The translations under genes were made by a program, and so were the position numbers. The notes under the pieces were generated by a model that did not search any database, was not told where the DNA came from, and saw only the letters and a list, made by a program, of their open reading frames with translations. DNA of 32,564 bases, from contig JACPOI010000044.1 of NCBI GenBank assembly GCA_016185015.1, forward strand, positions 1-32,564, written 5' to 3'. Source of the DNA: Burkholderiales bacterium. GTDB taxonomy: Bacteria; Pseudomonadota; Gammaproteobacteria; Burkholderiales; Burkholderiaceae_C. Shown here piece by piece: positions 17,374-25,827 of the stretch (its first letter is position 1; each line of letters begins with the position of its first letter).

Positions 17374-18474
17374 ATGAGCAAGAAATACAACATCCTGATC
17401 CTGGGCGCCTCTTATGGCTCCTTGCTCGCCAGCAAGTTGCTCATGGCGGGGCACTCGGTCAGCCTGGTGTGCCGCCGTGACACCGCCGACCTGATCAACC
17501 GCGAAGGCACCCGCGTGCGCATGCCGGTCAAGGGCCGCGAAGGCTTGGTCGAGATCGACTCGCGCCAGCTGCCCGGCAAGCTCGATGCCGTCATCCCCAC
17601 GGACGTCAAGCCCGAGACCTACGACCTGGTCTGCCTGGCCATGCAGGAGCCGCAGTACAGCGCCTCCGGCGTGCGCGAACTCATGCAGTCCATCGCCCTG
17701 GCCAAGGTGCCCTGCATGTCCATCATGAACATGCCGCCGCTGCCCTACCTGGCCCGCATCCCCGGCCTGGACGCCAGCGGCCTGCGCGCCTGCTACCACG
17801 ACCCCAGCGTCTGGGACCATTTCGAACCCGGCCTCATGACCCTGTGCAGCCCCGATCCGCAGGCCTTCCGCCCGCCGGAAGAGAGGCCGAACGTGCTGCA
17901 GGTCGGCCTGCCCACCAACTTCAAGGTGGCCCGCTTCGAGAACCCCGCACACACCGCCATGCTCGAGCAGATGGAAGCCGACATCGCCGCCGCCCGCCTG
18001 ACGGTCAACGGCGAAGCGCTGGACCTGCCGGTCAAGCTCAAGGTGCATGACTCCATCTTCGTGCCGCTGGCCAAGTGGGCCATGCTGCTTACCGGCAACT
18101 ACCGCTGCGTGCAGGCCGACGGCATGCGCGCCATCAAGGATGCCGTGCACGGCGACATCGAGAAGTCGCGCCAGGTCTACGCCTGGGTGGTGGACCTGTG
18201 CGTCCAGCTGGGTGCCCAGCCCGACGACATGGTGCCTTTCGACAAATACGCCGCTGCCGGCCAGGGCCTGCTCAAGCCGTCGTCCGGTGCTCGCGCCCTG
18301 GCGGCCGGTGCCACCGACATCGAGCGCATCGACCTGCTGGTCAAGCTCGTGGCCGAGCAGCAGGGCCTGAGCAACGACTCCGTCAACGAGACCGTCAAGG
18401 TGGTCAACGGCTGGCTGGATCGCAACCGCAAGGCGGCCGCCGCAAAAAAAGCGGCTGAGGCGGTCGCCGCCTGA
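17374..18474 (+). CDS. Ketopantoate reductase-like NAD(P)-binding protein
   Basis: 366 residues. The N-terminus ILILGASYGSLLASKLLMAG, followed by VSLVCRR, is a Rossmann dinucleotide-binding motif as in PanE/ApbA ketopantoate reductases, and YDLVCLAMQEPQ matches the next strand of that fold. The middle KLKVHDSIFVPLAKWAMLLT with the K...N pattern (ending TGNYRC) resembles the C-terminal helical domain. The C-terminus ends in an Ala/Lys-rich tail. It differs enough from true PanE that pantothenate synthesis should not be assumed; other 2-ketoacid or opine-type reductases share the fold. It follows aceA but has its own promoter. No strong ribosome site precedes the ATG. Confidence 0.65.
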   Translation: MSKKYNILILGASYGSLLASKLLMAGHSVSLVCRRDTADLINREGTRVRMPVKGREGLVEIDSRQLPGKLDAVIPTDVKPETYDLVCLAMQEPQYSASGVRELMQSIALAKVPCMSIMNMPPLPYLARIPGLDASGLRACYHDPSVWDHFEPGLMTLCSPDPQAFRPPEERPNVLQVGLPTNFKVARFENPAHTAMLEQMEADIAAARLTVNGEALDLPVKLKVHDSIFVPLAKWAMLLTGNYRCVQADGMRAIKDAVHGDIEKSRQVYAWVVDLCVQLGAQPDDMVPFDKYAAAGQGLLKPSSGARALAAGATDIERIDLLVKLVAEQQGLSNDSVNETVKVVNGWLDRNRKAAAAKKAAEAVAA

Positions 18475-18514
18475 GTGGCGGGGTCGCCTCGGCCTTTGTT
18501 TCCCGACGGTCGCG

Positions 18515-18544
18515 CAACGCCAGGGGGCTCGCCCCCTGGCGTTG
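18515..18544. terminator. Strong symmetric hairpin between the reductase-like gene and the thrS leader
   Basis: CAACGCCAGGGGG (18515-18527) and CCCCCTGGCGTTG (18532-18544) form a perfect 13-bp stem with a CTCG tetraloop. No T-run follows, so intrinsic termination is uncertain, but its position after a gene and before a new promoter region fits a transcript end. Confidence 0.5.
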
Positions 18545-18619
18545 TCGTCTGAGGCCTCGGTTAGAATGAGGGCTGTGGACCCAGCGTCCGTTCACAAGAG
18601 CGAGAAAGGCACCCTGGTT

Positions 18620-18670
18620 ATGACACCGCGAACTACCACCGCCAGCGAGAAACGCCACAGGGGTTGCTAG
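18620..18670 (+). CDS. Threonine-rich leader peptide of thrS
   Basis: A 16-codon frame, [16 protein letters not shown], with four Thr codons in the first seven residues, including ACT-ACC-ACC in a row. AAGG lies 10 bases upstream of the ATG. The stop codon TAG directly precedes the candidate antiterminator strand. Enrichment for the cognate amino acid of the downstream synthetase is the hallmark of ribosome-mediated attenuation peptides. Expression is not proven. Confidence 0.6.
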
Positions 18671-18710
18671 TCCGCGCGCCCCCGGGCGCAGGTGCTGTCA
18701 CATTCAAAAC

Positions 18711-18737
18711 AAGGCGCGGTTTCTACCGCGCCTTTTT
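18711..18737 (+). terminator. Attenuator terminator before thrS
   Basis: AAGGCGCGG (18711-18719), loop TTTCTA and CCGCGCCTT (18726-18734) followed by TTT make a canonical 9-bp intrinsic terminator. It ends only 21 bases before the thrS ATG, so it must be read through for thrS to be expressed, which points to regulated termination. Confidence 0.85.
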
Positions 18738-18758
18738 CATTTTCTGCGAGTGAGAGAT

Positions 18759-20693
18759 ATGGTTCAGATCACGCTACCCGACGGTTCCAAACGCGATTTT
18801 CCCGGCCCGGTCACCGTGGCCGAAGTGGCAGCCTCCATCGGCGCCGGCCTGGCCAAGGCCGCGCTGGCCGGCAAGATCGACGGCAAGGTCGTCGACACCA
18901 GCTACCAGATCACGGCCGACAGCCCCCTGTCCATCGTCACCGCCAAGGACGCCGACGGCCTGGAAGTCATCCGCCACTCCACCGCCCACCTGCTGGCCTA
19001 TGCCGTCAAGGAGCTGTTCCCCGACGCCCAGGTCACCATCGGCCCGGTCATCGAGCACGGCTTCTTCTACGACTTCTCCTACAAGCGTCCCTTCACCCCC
19101 GAAGACCTGGCCGCCATCGAGAAGAAGATGGCCGAACTCGCCGCCAAGGACGAGCCCGTGGTGCGTCGCGTGCTGCCGCGCGACGAGGCCGTGGCCTACT
19201 TCAAGGGCCTGGGCGAGCACTACAAGGCCGAGATCATTGCCAGCATCCCGGCCAATGAAGACGTCAGCCTGTACCGCGAAGGCAAGTTCGAAGACCTGTG
19301 CCGCGGCCCCCACGTGCCCAGCACCGGCAAGCTCAAGCACTTCAAGCTCATGAAGGTGGCCGGCGCCTACTGGCGTGGCGACCATCGCAACGAGATGCTG
19401 CAACGCGTCTACGGCACCGCCTGGGCCAGCAAGGAAGAGCTGCAGCAGTACCTGACCATGCTGGAAGAGGCCGAAAAGCGCGACCACCGCAAACTCGGCC
19501 GCGAACTCGACCTGTTCCACCTCGACGAGCATTCCCCCGGCACCGTCTTCTGGCACCCCAAGGGCTGGACCGTCTGGCAGGAGGTGGAGCAGTACATGCG
19601 CCGCGTCTACCGCGACAACGGCTACCAGGAAGTCAAGGGCCCGCAGATCCTGGACAAGGCCCTGTGGGAGAAGACCGGCCACTGGGACAAGTACCGCGAG
19701 AACATGTTCACCACCGAGAGTGAAAAGCGCGACTACGCCCTCAAGCCCATGAACTGCCCGGGCCACATCCTGATCTTCAAGCAGGGCATCAAGAGCTACC
19801 GCGAGCTGCCCCTGCGTTTCGGCGAGTTCGGCCAGTGCCACCGCAACGAACCCACTGGCGGCCTGCACGGCATCATGCGCGTGCGCGGTTTCACCCAGGA
19901 CGACGGCCACATCTTCTGCACCGAAGACCAGATCCTGGCGGAGTGCGTGAACTTCACGGCCCTGCTGCAGAAGGTCTACAAGGATTTCGGCTTCACCGAC
20001 ATCATCTACAAGGTCGCCACCCGCCCGGCCCAGCGCATCGGCGCCGACGCCCTGTGGGACAAGGCCGAGGCCGCCCTGATGGAGAGCCTGAAGGCCGCCA
20101 ATTGCGACTTCGAGATCTCCCCGGGCGACGGCGCCTTCTACGGCCCCAAGATCGAATACACCCTGAAGGACGCCATCGGCCGCCACTGGCAGTGCGGCAC
20201 CATCCAGGTCGATTTCTCCATGCCCGAGCGCCTGGACGCCGAGTACGTGGGGGAAGACGGCAACCGCCATCGTCCCGTCATGCTGCACCGGGCCATCCTG
20301 GGCAGCCTGGAGCGATTCATCGGCATCCTGGTCGAGGAACATGCCGGCGCGCTGCCCACCTGGCTGGCCCCGGTGCAGGTTTCGGTACTCAATATCACCG
20401 ACGCGCAGGCCGATTACTGCCTGGAAATTGCCCAAAAACTGAAGAAATCGTTGCCAAATCAAGAACTTAGGGTCCAGACAGACCTGCGCAACGAGAAAAT
20501 TACGTATAAAATACGCGAGCATTCGATGCAGAAGCTGCCTTACATCCTGGTCGCCGGCGACAAGGAGAAAGCAGCAGGTGCCGTCGCAGTGCGTGCCCGG
20601 GGTAACAAAGACCTCGGTGTGATGTCCCTCGAAGCCTTCGTGCAACTCATCGCGGCAGACATCGCTCACAAGTCAGTCGAGCAGGCTCAGTAA
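18759..20693 (+). CDS. thrS: Threonine-tRNA ligase
   Basis: 644 residues; charges tRNA-Thr. In order there are the TGS domain (1-62), the editing domain with [16 protein letters not shown] (the HxxxH of the Ser-Thr editing site near residue 74), the class II catalytic core with [10 protein letters not shown] (zinc-binding Cys), the motif 2 region [24 protein letters not shown] and motif 3 in [18 protein letters not shown], and the anticodon-binding domain from about residue 540. ATG 18759 with GAGAG upstream gives the usual [10 protein letters not shown] start; an in-frame GTG at 18750 is less likely. It heads the conserved translation operon and is preceded by the Thr-leader attenuator. The stretch 20420-20520 is unusually AT-rich for this gene. 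Confidence 0.97.
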
Positions 20694-20713
20694 GAGCCTC
20701 ATACGGCAGGTTT

Positions 20714-20752
20714 TTGGTACGTACCAAGGCGGTCTCAGCCACCCATGGGTGG
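20714..20752 (+). promoter_or_regulatory. Two palindromic hairpins in the thrS-infC gap
   Basis: TTGGTACGTACCAA (20714-20727) and CCACCCATGGGTGG (20739-20752) are each perfect 14-base palindromes between the thrS stop and the infC ribosome site. Neither is followed by a T-run. They may structure the infC leader or stabilise processed mRNA ends. Confidence 0.45.
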
Positions 20753-20774
20753 CAAAGTTTTAAGGAATTGAACC

Positions 20775-21371
20775 ATCGCTACTGAATTTCGTGATCGTCG
20801 CCAGCGCGAAGAGCGCAAGCACCGCCTGAACCGTGAAATCATGGCCACCGAGGTCCGGATTTCCGGCCCTGAGAATGAGCCCATGGGGGTGGTGAGCCTG
20901 ACGGAGGCCCTGCGCTTGGCAGGCGAGATGGATGTGGACCTGATCGAAACAGTGGCCACCGCGAATCCTCCCGTCTGCCGCCTGATGGACTACGGCAAGT
21001 TCAAGTTCCAGGAACAGAAGAAGGCTGCCGAGGCGAAATCGAAGCAGAAGGTCATCGAGGTCAAGGAAATCAAGTTCCGGCCCGGTACCGACGATGGTGA
21101 CTACAACATCAAGTTGCGCAACATCAAGCGCTTCTTGGAAGAAGGTGACAAGTGCAAGATTACCTTGCGCTTCCGTGGTCGAGAGATCACGCACCAGGAG
21201 ATCGGCATGGCCATGCTGGACCGCATGCGCGCCGATCTGGCGGATCTGATCGTGGTCGAGCAGTATCCCAAGCTGGAAGGCCGGCAGATGATCATGATGA
21301 TCGCGCCGGGCAAGAAAAAGGCTGGTGGCGCTGCGGCGGCCAAGCCTGCTGCAGAAGCAGCGCAAGGTTAA
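20775..21371 (+). CDS. infC: Translation initiation factor IF-3 (ATC start codon)
   Basis: 198 residues. IF-3 binds the 30S subunit, prevents 50S joining and checks start codons. The N-domain ([43 protein letters not shown]), the lysine-rich linker and the C-domain ([37 protein letters not shown]) are complete. There is no ATG, GTG or TTG at the N-terminus in frame; the family start (M)[20 protein letters not shown] begins on ATC at 20775, with AAGGA 8-10 bases upstream. Rare AUU/AUC/AUA starts are known for infC and allow autoregulation through IF-3's discrimination against them. An ATG at 20841 would remove 22 conserved residues. The Ala/Lys tail is variable. Confidence 0.95.
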
Positions 21372-21375
21372 GTTT

Positions 21376-21523
21376 TTTCCTGCGGGTTGCAGAACCGGCA
21401 GGAAATGCCGGGAGGGTGAAAGCTTTCCTGGAACGCGATGGGGTCAAACCTGTCGCACGGGCGGCGCCGCAAGGTGCTGCCTACAAGTGGCTCGGGGCCT
21501 ACAAGGCTGGAAACGGTTTCCAG
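21376..21523 (+). promoter_or_regulatory. Structured infC-rpmI leader (candidate L20 control region)
   Basis: Just after infC, TTTCCTGCGGGTT (21376-21388) pairs with AACCGGCAGGAAA (21393-21405), 13 bp with one mismatch. A second hairpin, CTGGAAA-CGG-TTTCCAG, lies at 21507-21523, and GCCTACAAG is repeated at 21479 and 21497. In E. coli and other bacteria L20 represses this operon by binding structured RNA before rpmI. The 186-base gap and its structures fit that role, but no pseudoknot was proven here. Confidence 0.45.
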
Positions 21524-21557
21524 ACGCCTCGCGAGCACAAGCAATAGGAGCATTTAT

Positions 21558-21761
21558 ATGCCCAAAATGAAGACCAAGAGCGCGGCGAAGAAACGCTTCC
21601 GCGTTCGTCCCGGTGGTACCGTCAAGCGCGGCCAAGCCTTCAAGCGTCACATCCTGACCAAGAAGACCACCAAGAACAAACGCCATCTGCGGGGTTCTAC
21701 AGCTGTCCATGCGACCAATATGGGTCACATGGCACAGATGCTGCCCGGCCAAGGCATTTAA
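21558..21761 (+). CDS. rpmI: 50S ribosomal protein L35
   Basis: 67 residues, [20 protein letters not shown] through MLPGQGI, a full-length L35 that sits on 23S rRNA in the large subunit. TAGGAG precedes the ATG at the right distance. The gene is followed 25 bases later by rplT, as in nearly all bacteria. Confidence 0.97.
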
Positions 21762-21786
21762 TTAACGACGAACAAGGAGTAATCAA

Positions 21787-22146
21787 ATGCCTCGCGTCAA
21801 ACGTGGTGTAACGGCTCGCGCCCGCCATAAGAAAGTTCTCGCACTCGCCAAGGGTTTCCGCGGTCGCCGCGGTAATGTCTTCCGCATCGCCAAAGAAGCG
21901 GTGATGAAGGCTGGGCAATATGCCTACCGTGACCGTCGTACCAAGAAGCGTGTGTTCCGTCAGCTGTGGATTGCCCGTATCAACGCGGCAGCCCGTCAGT
22001 GCGGCATGACCTACAGCCAGTTCGCCAACGGCCTGAAGAAGGCCCAGATCGAAATCGACCGCAAGGTTCTGGCTGACATCGCCGTCAACGACATGACCGC
22101 TTTTGCCGGCATCGTGGAGAAGGTCAAGGCCAAGCTGGCTGCTTGA
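21787..22146 (+). CDS. rplT: 50S ribosomal protein L20
   Basis: 119 residues, starting [20 protein letters not shown] with the long basic N-terminal helix and ending in the globular domain ([19 protein letters not shown]). L20 is needed for early 50S assembly and represses its own operon by binding upstream mRNA in several bacteria. AAGGAG precedes the start codon. Two hairpins follow before pheS. Confidence 0.97.
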
Positions 22147-22161
22147 TCTTCACGCCAGAGG

Positions 22162-22182
22162 GGCGGCCGCGAGGCCGCCTTT
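22162..22182 (+). terminator. GC-rich hairpin after rplT
   Basis: GGCGGCC-GCGA-GGCCGCC followed by TTTC, 16 bases after the rplT stop. The U-tract is short, so termination is probably partial. Together with the terminator that follows, it would lower pheST expression relative to the ribosomal proteins. Confidence 0.5.
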
Positions 22183-22196
22183 CATGCACAAGAAAC

Positions 22197-22232
22197 AAGG
22201 GCTGGAGCTTGAACAAAGCTTTGGCCCTTTTT
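22197..22232 (+). terminator. Terminator in the rplT-pheS gap
   Basis: AAGGGC (22197-22202) and GCCCTT (22224-22229), with an inner AGCTT/AAGCT stem, are followed by TTT. In E. coli a terminator in this place is the pheS attenuator controlled by the pheM leader peptide. Here the only overlapping small frame is not Phe-rich, so the control, if any, differs. Confidence 0.6.
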
Positions 22233-22309
22233 CATTGCGCAGGGCGATCTGGAGAGCGCAGCCGCAACTGCGCTGCCCCGATCACTTTGCACCCCTAGGG
22301 TAAGAACAC

Positions 22310-23362
22310 ATGAACGAGTTGGACGCCATCGTCGCCAGCGCACAGGCAGCATTTGCCCAGGCCGCCACCCCGGCGGATCTGGAGAACGCCAAAGCGCGTT
22401 TCCTGGGCAAGACCGGCAGCATCACCGAGCTGATGAAGGGCATGGCCGCCCTCAGCGTGGAAGAGAAGAAAAGCCGCGGCGCCGCCATCAACGTAGCCAA
22501 ACAAGCCGTCGAAGCCGCACTCAACGCCCGCCGCCAGGCCCTGGCCGATGCCGAGCTGAACAAGCAGTTGCAGGCCGAGGCGCTGGACGTCACGCTGCCC
22601 GGCCGCGCGCGCGGCACCGGCGGCCTGCACCCGGTGAGCCTGACCATGGAGCGCCTGGAGGCCATCTTCGGCTCCATGGGCTTCGAAGTGGCCCAGGGCC
22701 CCGAGATCGAGGCCGACTGGTACAACTTCACCGCGCTCAACACGCCCGAAGACCACCCCGCGCGCTCCATGCACGACACCTTCTACGTGGAAGGCGGCAG
22801 CGCCAAGGCGCCCAACCTGCTGCGCACGCACACCAGCCCGGTGCAGGTGCGCCACGCGCTGCAGCACGTCAAGCAATACAAGGCGCTGGTTGATTCTGGT
22901 CAGCCCATGCCCGAGATCCGAGTGATTGCCCCCGGCCGCACCTACCGCGTGGACAGCGACGCCACCCACTCGCCCATGTTCCACCAGTGCGAAGGCCTGT
23001 GGATCGGCGAGAACGTGAGCTTCAAGGACCTCAAGTACCTCTTCACCGAGTTCTGCCGTACCTTCTTCGAACGCGACGACCTGGTGCTGCGCTTCCGCCC
23101 CAGCTTCTTCCCCTTCACCGAGCCCAGTGCCGAGATCGACATCCAGTTCCAGAGCGGCCCGCTGGCCGGCCGCTGGCTGGAAGTGGCCGGCTCCGGCCAG
23201 GTGCACCCGAACGTGGTGCGCAATATGGGCCTGGACCCCGAGCAACACATCGGCTTTGCATTTGGCATGGGGCTGGACCGCTTCACCATGCTGCGCTACG
23301 GCGTCAACGACCTGCGCCTGTTCTTCGACGGCGACATCCGCTTCCTGTCGCAATTCCGCTGA
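22310..23362 (+). CDS. pheS: Phenylalanine-tRNA ligase alpha subunit
   Basis: 350 residues; with PheT forms the alpha2-beta2 synthetase. The N-terminal coiled coil (about 1-90) is followed by the class II core: [40 protein letters not shown], the motif 2 region [34 protein letters not shown] and motif 3 [18 protein letters not shown]. Everything expected of a functional alpha subunit is present. AGGGTAAG precedes the ATG. The gap to pheT is 32 bases. Confidence 0.97.
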
Positions 23363-23394
23363 ACGCCCGTTGACCCTAAAAGAAGATCCAGATC

Positions 23395-25827
23395 ATGCAA
23401 TTCCCCGAGTCCTGGCTGCGCGAATTCTGCAACCCGCCGCTCTCCACCCAGCAACTGGCCGACACGCTCACCATGGCCGGCCTGGAGGTGGAAGAACTGC
23501 GCCCCGTGGCGCCGCCCTTCACCAAGATCGTCGTCGGCGAAATCAAGGAAGCCGTGCAACACCCCAACGCCGACCGCCTGCGCGTGTGCCAGGTGGACGT
23601 GGGGCAGGGCGCCTTGCTCAACATCGTCTGTGGTGCGCCCAATGCGCGCGTGGGCATCCGCGTGCCCTGCGCCCTCGTGGGCGCCGAGCTGCCCCCGGGT
23701 GAAGACGGCAAACCCTTTCTCATCAAGCTGGGCAAGCTGCGCGGTGTGGAAAGCCAGGGCATGCTGTGCTCGGCCCGCGAGCTGAAATTGTCCGAAGACC
23801 ACGGCGGCCTGCTGGAGCTGGCGGCTGATGCCCCCATCGGCCAGGACATCCGCCAGGTGCTGAACCTGGACGACACGCTGTTCACCTTGAAGCTCACGCC
23901 CAACCTTGCGCACTGCCTGTCCGTCTACGGCGTGGCGCGTGAAGTGGCCGCGCTGACCGGCGCGCCCCTCAAGGCCCCCAGCTTCCCGCCCGTGGCCGTG
24001 AAGAGCCAGGACAAACAGCCCGTGAAGATCAACGCGCCCGACCTCTGCGGCCGCTTCTCCGGCCGCATCGTGCGCAACGTCAACACCAAGGCCGCCACCC
24101 CCCAGTGGATGGTGGACCGCCTGGCCCGCTGCGGCCAGCGCAGCGTGACGGCGCTGGTGGACATCTCCAACTACGTGATGTTCGAGTTCGGCCGCCCGAG
24201 CCACATCTTCGACCTGGACAAGATCCACGGCACGCTGGACGTGCGCTGGGGCAAGCCGGGTGAACAGCTCAAGCTGCTCAACGGCAACACCGTTACGGTG
24301 GATGCCGAAGTCGGCGTCATTGCCGACGACCAGCAGGTCGAGTCCCTGGCCGGCATCATGGGCGGCGACGCCACCGCCGTGTCGGACGACACGCAACACG
24401 TCTACGTCGAAGCCGCCTTCTGGTGGCCCAGGGCCATCGCCGGCCGTTCGCGCCGCTACAACTTCGCCACCGACGCCGGCCACCGCTTCGAGCGCGGGGT
24501 GGACCCGCAGCTTACCGTGGAGCACATCGAGCGCATCACCCAGCTCATCGTGGACATCTGCGGCACACCCAGCACCGCCTGCGGCCCCATCGACGACCAT
24601 CAGGTCAAGATGCCGCAAGCCCAGCCCGTCACCCTGCGCGTGGCGCGCGCTGCCAAGATCATCGGCATGCCGCTCACGCAGGCGCAGTGCAGTGATGCGC
24701 TCAAGCGCCTGGGTCTGCCGCTGAGTGAAGGGCAGGGCACCATCACCGTCACCCCGCCGTTGTACCGCTTCGACCTGCAGATCGAAGAAGACCTCATCGA
24801 GGAAGTGGCGCGCCTGGTGGGCTACGACCACCTGCCGCACACCCCGCCGCTGGCGCCCGTTGTGCCCAAGACGCGCCTGGAATCGCAGCGCAGCGCCTTT
24901 GCTGTGCGCCGCCAATTGGCCGCGCTGGGCTACCAGGAAACCATCAACTACAGCTTCGTGGACGAACGCTGGGAGCACGAGCTGGCCGGCAACCCCAACC
25001 CCATCAAGCTCATGAACCCCATCGCCAGCCAGATGGGCGTGATGCGCTCCACGCTGCTGGGCTCTCTGCTGCAGGTGCTCAAGTTCAACCTGGACCGCAA
25101 GACCGAGCGCGTGCGTGTGTTCGAGCTGGGCCGCGTTTTCCTGCGTGATGCTTCCGTGACCGACAGCGACACCAGCGTGGCCGGTTTTGCCCAGCCCATG
25201 CGCGTGGCCGGCCTCGCCGTCGGCGGGGTGGACACCATGCAGTGGGCCACCAAAGACCGCGCCGTCGACTTCTATGACGCCAAGGGCGACGTCGAAGCCC
25301 TGCTGGCCCCGCGGAAACCCGCCTTCGAAGCCGCCGAACACCCGGCCATGCACCCCGGCCGTTGCGCCCGTGTGCTGCTGGACGGCAAGGCCATTGGTTA
25401 CGTGGGCGAGCTGCACCCGCGCTGGCGCCAGGGCTACGAGCTGGCCCAGACGCCCGTGATGTTCGAGCTGGAACTCGACGCCGTGCTGGCGCGCGAGGTG
25501 CCGGCCCTGAAGGCCATGAGCAAATTCCAGGCGGTGGAGCGTGACCTGGCCGTCATCGTGGCCGAGAGCGTGAGCCATGCCGCGCTGATGCAGGCCATCC
25601 AGGCCGCGCCCACGGCCGGCCTGTTGCGTCATGCGATACTCTTCGACGTCTACCGCGCCAAGCCGGGGGCAGCCTCGGCCGGCTTGGCCGAGGGCGAGAA
25701 GAGCCTGGCGGTGCGCCTCACGCTCAACAGCGACGAAGCCACCCTGACCGAAGAGCAGATTGAAAGCTCCGTGCAAGCTGTGCTGGGCACGCTGCAGCAA
25801 CAGGTGGGCGCGCGTCTGCGGGCCTGA
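23395..25827 (+). CDS. pheT: Phenylalanine-tRNA ligase beta subunit
   Basis: 810 residues. In order: the N-terminal B1 domain, the EMAP/OB tRNA-binding domain (VVGEIKEAVQHPNADRLRVCQVD, residues about 39-150), the B3/B4 editing domain, B5 (about 405-480), a catalytic-like domain lacking class II active residues, and the C-terminal ferredoxin-fold anticodon-binding domain (about 715-810, starting KFQAVERDLAVIV). It supports tRNA binding and hydrolysis of Tyr-tRNA-Phe. The gene is followed 42 bases later by ihfA. Confidence 0.97.
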   Translation: MQFPESWLREFCNPPLSTQQLADTLTMAGLEVEELRPVAPPFTKIVVGEIKEAVQHPNADRLRVCQVDVGQGALLNIVCGAPNARVGIRVPCALVGAELPPGEDGKPFLIKLGKLRGVESQGMLCSARELKLSEDHGGLLELAADAPIGQDIRQVLNLDDTLFTLKLTPNLAHCLSVYGVAREVAALTGAPLKAPSFPPVAVKSQDKQPVKINAPDLCGRFSGRIVRNVNTKAATPQWMVDRLARCGQRSVTALVDISNYVMFEFGRPSHIFDLDKIHGTLDVRWGKPGEQLKLLNGNTVTVDAEVGVIADDQQVESLAGIMGGDATAVSDDTQHVYVEAAFWWPRAIAGRSRRYNFATDAGHRFERGVDPQLTVEHIERITQLIVDICGTPSTACGPIDDHQVKMPQAQPVTLRVARAAKIIGMPLTQAQCSDALKRLGLPLSEGQGTITVTPPLYRFDLQIEEDLIEEVARLVGYDHLPHTPPLAPVVPKTRLESQRSAFAVRRQLAALGYQETINYSFVDERWEHELAGNPNPIKLMNPIASQMGVMRSTLLGSLLQVLKFNLDRKTERVRVFELGRVFLRDASVTDSDTSVAGFAQPMRVAGLAVGGVDTMQWATKDRAVDFYDAKGDVEALLAPRKPAFEAAEHPAMHPGRCARVLLDGKAIGYVGELHPRWRQGYELAQTPVMFELELDAVLAREVPALKAMSKFQAVERDLAVIVAESVSHAALMQAIQAAPTAGLLRHAILFDVYRAKPGAASAGLAEGEKSLAVRLTLNSDEATLTEEQIESSVQAVLGTLQQQVGARLRA

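Follow-up and report, generated by a model that had tools for sequence, protein, structure and literature searches.

A putative threonine leader-peptide attenuator upstream of thrS in Burkholderiales

The stretch of DNA analysed here, referred to as the window, comprises 32,564 nucleotides of a Burkholderiales genome and encodes the threonyl-tRNA synthetase ThrRS, with infC, rplT, pheS and pheT following thrS in that order. Between a likely -10 element and the thrS start codon lie a short open reading frame (ORF), hereafter the leader, and an intrinsic terminator (Table 1), and the window's own genome contains one copy of this element. A preliminary description of the locus had named a 16-codon frame with four early Thr codons, a strand following it, and a terminator in front of thrS, and we recovered each of these parts at the place given for it. 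The Thr codons of the leader are codons 2, 5, 6 and 7 (ACA, ACT, ACC and ACC, respectively). A longer in-frame version of the leader can be read from an ATG at 18566, which overlaps the likely -10 element.

Table 1. Features of the thrS upstream region, in window coordinates
Feature	Position	Strand	Basis or remark
Likely -10 element TAGAAT of the thrS promoter	18562..18567	+	Read from sequence
Shine-Dalgarno-like AAAGG of the leader ORF	18605..18609	+	10 nt 5′ of the leader ATG
Leader ORF	18620-18670	+	16 codons; sequence and translation; kept across the order
Strand 1 (GCGAACTA, Arg4-Thr5 codons)	18628..18635	+	Can pair with 18668-18675
Strand 2 (stop codon and following strand, TAGTCCGCGCGCC)	18668..18680	+	Would be covered by a ribosome terminating at 18668-18670
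Local hairpin GCGCC-CCCG-GGCGC	18676..18689	+	Predicted fold; overlaps strand 2
Intrinsic terminator (strands 3 and 4) with T-run	18711..18737	+	Terminator scan and predicted fold
thrS, threonyl-tRNA synthetase	18759..20693	+	NCBIfam TIGR00418, E 4.8e-219; putative controlled gene

A consensus scan found no promoter in this region of the window, and no good -35 element is present at the standard spacing from TAGAAT. Among relatives, a TANAAT hexamer was found 25–90 nt 5′ of the leader ATG in 49 of 63, versus 2.2 expected from shuffles. In an alignment of 35 leaders, the columns of the Shine-Dalgarno-like AAAGG show at least 90% conservation, and a Shine-Dalgarno-like match of at least 4 nt precedes 75 of the 93 leaders in a non-redundant set (at most 85% alike, out of 145 found). 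Judged by conservation across relatives, the ORF and its placement go beyond chance. A palindrome, CAACGCCAGGGGGCTCGCCCCCTGGCGTTG, occupies 18516–18545 just 5′ of the likely -10 element and has no T-run.

The terminator stem (18711–18734) is perfect, with 10 pairs, 7 of them G-C, a loop of 4 and a T-rich tail. It begins 40 nt after the end of the leader stop codon, and its T-run leaves 21 nt to the thrS ATG, in agreement with the earlier claim of a canonical terminator 21 bases 5′ of thrS. Such sites are common in this DNA, as 8 terminator-like sites were found in 17900–23500 versus 5.8 expected (sd 2.8). The stretch from 18671 to 18745 folds with a z of -3.7. In the 35 aligned leaders, the 7 consensus terminator pairs are kept in every sequence (35/35), with two-sided changes in 3 of the pairs.

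Enrichment for Thr was evaluated in a selection-free sample of thrS upstream regions from one order, the named relatives being Burkholderiales. thrS was present in 147 of 150 genomes, and 140 loci were used (30 + 100 + 10); one, L310, had no start, leaving 139 regions from 49 families. ATG-initiated ORFs of 6–35 codons with at least four Thr in seven codons were present in 22 of the 139 regions, representing 12 families, where dinucleotide shuffles gave an expectation of 0.1. Visual inspection placed 20 of these in the leader class and left L255 and L299 in doubt; some few of the set are near-identical inside one family. Some short ORFs before thrS run out of tRNA genes (MVGVVGSSPIAPT) and are artefacts. 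None of the other 19 amino acids was enriched before thrS in these 139 regions, each being at or below expectation or a single occurrence. We also applied a test of geometry, which called for an ORF of 8–24 codons with an [R/L/P]T dipeptide, at least two Thr near its start, and a stop codon 10–75 nt 5′ of a terminator. This arrangement was found in 36 of the 84 terminator-bearing regions and in 20 of the 49 families, versus 1.12 regions expected.

Reading frame was examined in 45 non-redundant leaders picked only by a nucleotide motif ending at codon 5, not by Thr. Beyond codon 5, Thr accounts for 91 of 397 codons in frame (23%), versus 6/397 (1.5%) and 13/397 (3.3%) in the shifted frames. The wider set of 93 leaders gave 167 of 766 in frame versus 19 and 25 of 766; its Thr counts are inflated, the set having been partly picked for Thr, and both the 139-region and the 45-leader tests are free of that effect. 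Conservation of the Thr run, which the preliminary description had proposed as a check, is borne out, in that enrichment before thrS is confined to Thr and all four Thr codons are found at positions +1 and +2 following an Arg-Thr pair among the 93 leaders.

The start-region motif GGTTATGACACCGCGAACT, with up to 3 mismatches, was found in 64 of 106 thrS upstream regions of near relatives; these regions are 103 distinct ones, as three pairs come from the same gene, and another five of the 111 loci yielded no region for want of a thrS start or of a hit. Within the window's own genus, the leader is present in 15 of 25 genomes with a thrS start and absent from the other 10, and hence is dispensable. 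Leader peptides include MTPRTTTTTTSTSTEV in Leptothrix, MTPRTTTETSTGR in Alicycliphilus and MTPRTTTTPTKV in Roseateles. Those away from Comamonadaceae include MFRTSTTTQS, MSFRTTTTGTLNLG, MFKRTTTTRISR and MAVRTTTTHP, and the Ralstonia peptide, of 14 letters, differs in sequence from the Comamonadaceae type. Since the peptides vary across the order, the Thr run is kept as amino acids while the start and flanks drift. Among the odd leaders, L028 has ATA for ATG, and L003, L068 and L069 stop at 21–22 codons.

Outside the order, a sample with thrS in 113 of 114 genomes was drawn on; two of these belong to the order, and 68 of the other 111 were used, one genome from each of 68 families. By the test of four Thr in seven codons, these 68 regions held no credible case; the leader-plus-terminator geometry test covered the order's regions only. 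The sole outside region with at least four Thr, L352, was rejected because its ORF runs out of a tRNA gene, and L326, L335, L362 and L365 have three Thr. A covariance model, R1, matches 163 of 300 order genomes at E 0.01, a count that we did not accept as a prevalence because weak matches look like ordinary terminators. Among 70 loci from its best matches, the window included, a thrS start lies downstream in 61 and not in 9.

Several lineages have a hairpin and no leader. In eight leaderless loci (L008, L009, L013, L087, L093, L095, L103 and L104), a GC hairpin with a T-run lies in the last 80 nt before thrS, between a TANAAT-like -10 element and the gene. In Limnohabitans and several same-genus genomes the leader is gone, and the T-run hairpin remains between the TANAAT-like element and thrS. 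Between strand 2 and the terminator, Rhodoferax-type leaders (L006, L007, L051 and L063) contain a short, TAGCTACNAAATTNATAGT-like AT-rich stretch that resembles a dispersed repeat of that family.

In the window, the strand at 18672–18680 (CCGCGCGCC) begins 2 nt after the leader stop codon, and its first six bases, CCGCGC (18672–18677), are complementary without a gap to GCGCGG (18714–18719) of the terminator 5′ arm. Strand 1 forms 7 of 8 possible pairs with 18668–18675, with one A-C mismatch. The preliminary description held that the strand after the frame is able to pair with the 5′ arm. Its position and the 6-nt complementarity stand, but within the window alone the pairing of strands 2 and 3 is no better than in shuffled sequence (z -0.3), and neither is that of strands 1 and 2 (z -1.1). 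CCGCGC:GCGCGG is absent from the predicted fold of the window's stalled state, before strand 4, in which strand 3 pairs elsewhere; with strand 4 present, the terminator is predicted to win at equilibrium. The predicted fold also gives strand 2 competing partners, namely the local hairpin and a GGGG/CCCC pairing. In 16 close relatives, the outer four pairs of the local hairpin are kept in all but one cell, and the innermost is broken in 7 of 16. Locus L049 has U-A in place of C-G in this hairpin. Its C-to-U change in strand 2 is matched by G-to-A both in strand 3 and in the hairpin, and strand 4 changes from C to U as well, all in one lineage.

Across species, duplex energies were calculated for the 93 leaders, with strand 2 defined as -6 to +22 relative to the stop codon and strand 3 as the terminator 5′ arm plus loop. 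The mean energy of strand 2 with strand 3 was -13.69 when matched, versus -12.06 when species were swapped (sd 0.22, 60 permutations), and that of strand 1 with strand 2 was -12.40, versus -11.37 (sd 0.22); because related species are not independent, the pairing numbers given here are not probabilities. Relative to dinucleotide shuffles of strand 2, the mean z was 1.20 and 0.76 for the two pairings, and 22/93 and 18/93 leaders, respectively, reached p < 0.05 singly. The best partner of strand 3 starts between -8 and +20 of the stop codon in 80% of the 93 leaders, versus 44% if placement were uniform. When the 5′ arm was used without its loop, 0/100 swaps reached the matched mean for strands 2 and 3, and the same was true (0/100) when swaps were kept inside one arm type; inside the GCGCGG type alone 3/100 did so, and inside GTGCGG 0/100. 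In some families, for example at L140 (CUAGUCGCGG with GUGCGGCUAG), the pairing reaches from the stop codon into the loop of the terminator.

Among the 16 close relatives, 99% of cells preserve pairing at the 6 antiterminator positions, and the one two-sided change there, which 104 of 500 shuffles reach, is not significant. Strands 1 and 2 pair in 86% of cells, again with one two-sided change (reached by 31/500 shuffles). Compensatory change in the stems had been proposed as a check, and lack of conservation of the alternative pairing as grounds for refutation. We found the pairing conserved in place and in matched complementarity among the 93 leaders, but not supported by pair-by-pair covariation in the close relatives. 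In a fold simulation, at least 5 nt of the arm was already paired upstream in 89/93 leaders in the stalled state, 67/93 in the stopped state and 47/93 in the free state; the simulation had no random control and its states expose different lengths, and we give these counts little weight. A start-codon hairpin, GGU-UAUGAC-ACC, predicted by RNAalifold, forms in 56 of the 67 leaders that keep CCG as codon 3 and in 2 of the 26 others. Its pairs show no two-sided change, and it was treated as inherited sequence rather than as an established structure.

A short ORF with a start codon and a Shine-Dalgarno-like sequence thus precedes thrS, its cognate codons are conserved as amino acids, and an intrinsic terminator, seen in the sequence and in the predicted fold, separates leader from gene. 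The geometry of attenuation that had been proposed for the locus is also present, with Thr codons over strand 1, the stop codon at strand 2, and then the terminator. On this comparative evidence, namely a Thr-coding ORF that is conserved, a terminator, and strands 1, 2 and 3 that keep their places and their species-matched complementarity, the element is very likely a transcription attenuator of the ribosome-mediated kind, linking transcription of thrS to charged tRNA-Thr. The bacteria probably use the leader to raise ThrRS output when charged tRNA-Thr runs short. The steps that we infer are leader translation, ribosome stalling, the structural switch and responsiveness to charging. By default, strand 1 would pair with strand 2, strands 3 and 4 would form the terminator, and RNA polymerase would stop before thrS. 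Full translation of the leader would have the same outcome, as the terminating ribosome would cover strand 2 and leave the terminator to form. When charged tRNA-Thr is short, the ribosome would stall at the early Thr codons and cover strand 1; strand 2 would then be free to bind strand 3 and, in some species, also the terminator loop, so that no terminator would form and thrS would be transcribed.

The hairpin could instead simply terminate upstream transcription, with read-through into thrS at a fixed level, and the Thr ORF would then be incidental. tRNA-like signatures do lie within 380 nt in 89 of the 139 regions, and in at least six families (f15, f36, f37, f38, f44 and f50) a tRNA-like sequence and a hairpin stand directly before thrS with no leader between. 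The Thr enrichment, however, far exceeds chance, the window has no tRNA at this position, and in its near relatives a -10-like hexamer immediately precedes the leader; we consider this explanation improbable. It is slightly less plausible still that ThrRS binds the leader RNA and controls its own gene as in E. coli, with the ORF secondary. The stretch from the Shine-Dalgarno sequence to CGAACU is conserved at the nucleotide level beyond what the peptide would need, Arg-Thr being near-fixed as CGA in 79/93 leaders and ACT in 82/93. Binding by ThrRS would nevertheless leave the in-frame Thr bias and the free third bases after Arg-Thr to be accounted for, and the 21 nt from the T-run to the thrS ATG in the window would be too few for an operator of the E. 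coli size. Most improbable is that the leader senses slowed or arrested translation of any kind, for example that caused by an inhibitor or by the rare codons CGA and ACT, rather than threonine specifically. In favour of this, no codon pair is better conserved across the order than CGA-ACT, the Thr codons ACT and ACA are rare in seven window ORFs (5 and 11 of 159 Thr codons), and 24/93 leaders contain just two Thr codons. Against it, additional Thr codons recur in differing peptides with varying third bases, and the downstream gene is the Thr synthetase.

In some leader families (f19, f21 and f24) the order is tRNA, leader, hairpin, thrS, and the families with the order tRNA, hairpin, thrS suggest that the attenuator grew on a tRNA terminator; in evolutionary terms, what began as a tRNA terminator may have become an attenuator. 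One extended version of this idea, which we put forward as a tentative and rather doubtful one, is that an upstream tRNA gene supplied the 3′ terminator on which an order-wide Thr attenuator was built, and that the attenuator's nearly invariant CGA-ACU core has a role besides encoding Thr, acting either as a rare codon pair that times the ribosome or as an RNA strand that pairs around the stop codon. If this were true, the leaderless hairpin lineages would illustrate the ways in which an essential gene can evade an attenuator terminator or put it to new use. A promoter for thrS of Cupriavidus metallidurans is given under the tag Rmet_R0015 in a table of PMC9045368. This looks like an RNA-gene tag, which would fit co-transcription. 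In L246, L254, L264, L276 and others, a tRNA-like sequence and a terminator-like hairpin adjoin thrS and there is no Thr leader.

In E. coli, thrS is controlled by translational repression, in which ThrRS binds a tRNA-like operator without a leader peptide or terminator switch; the gene is the same, but the mechanism proposed here differs. The E. coli thrL-thrABC and pheM-pheST systems are leader-peptide attenuators, of which thrL senses both Thr and Ile and pheM controls a synthetase operon. They are alike in the kind of attenuation, but the genes that they control differ from thrS. The Burkholderiales element would give a large bacterial group a threonine-sensing switch for an essential synthetase, unlike the E. 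coli textbook case.

No T-box riboswitch was among the Rfam matches of the window, nor was one found in 18480–18800 up to E 10. At the gathering threshold, only a tRNA passes in the window, with no leader family in the leader region, and five further loci (L012 and L077–L080) gave tRNAs only. Sub-threshold matches such as ncS025 (16.1 bits versus a threshold of 46) were dismissed. The known class to which the element would belong is that of ribosome-mediated attenuators of synthetase genes, and within the Rfam scans made it has no match. We recognised no report of this thrS leader in the literature searched; older comparative work may hold one, as may subscription papers and supplements, which lay outside the search.

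The closest kinds that we found in print, as far as the available parts of the two papers go, are a cysS motif and a Streptomyces leader. The uORFC-8-2 motif before cysS of Rhodobacterales, for which ribosome-mediated attenuation has been proposed (PMC8632094), likewise combines a short ORF holding codons for the synthetase's own amino acid, a stem that contains them, and a terminator with a U-run. It differs in concerning Cys and cysS in alphaproteobacteria, with tandem Cys codons usually at 14 and 15, whereas the Burkholderiales element concerns Thr and thrS and has its Thr codons near the ORF start. A Thr leader peptide has also been proposed before thrS in the thrL-thrS arrangement of Streptomyces lividans (PMC8079986). 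That thrL has 18 codons with two Thr, is leaderless, and is described in the part of the paper available to us as unclear with respect to termination; its peptide, MKRVRPFLETTPGFVPAR, is by eye unlike the leaders found here. The accessible text of PMC2965389, a survey of premature terminators, mentions ThrRS autoregulation and discusses hisS leaders, and does not describe the present thrS leader.

The patchy presence of the element (20/49 families, and 15/25 genomes in one genus) makes gain and loss of the attenuator directly testable. Two genomes depart from a single intact thrS. Genome G024, of the same genus as the window, has two thrS genes, L108 and L085, whose identities to the thrS of the window are 63% and 97%. 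The genome is listed with 8% contamination, and the second thrS, which carries its own leader MSPRTCRDVTG, may be foreign. In the single-contig genome G004, thrS appears to be split into two frames (L106 and L110), perhaps by a sequence frameshift.
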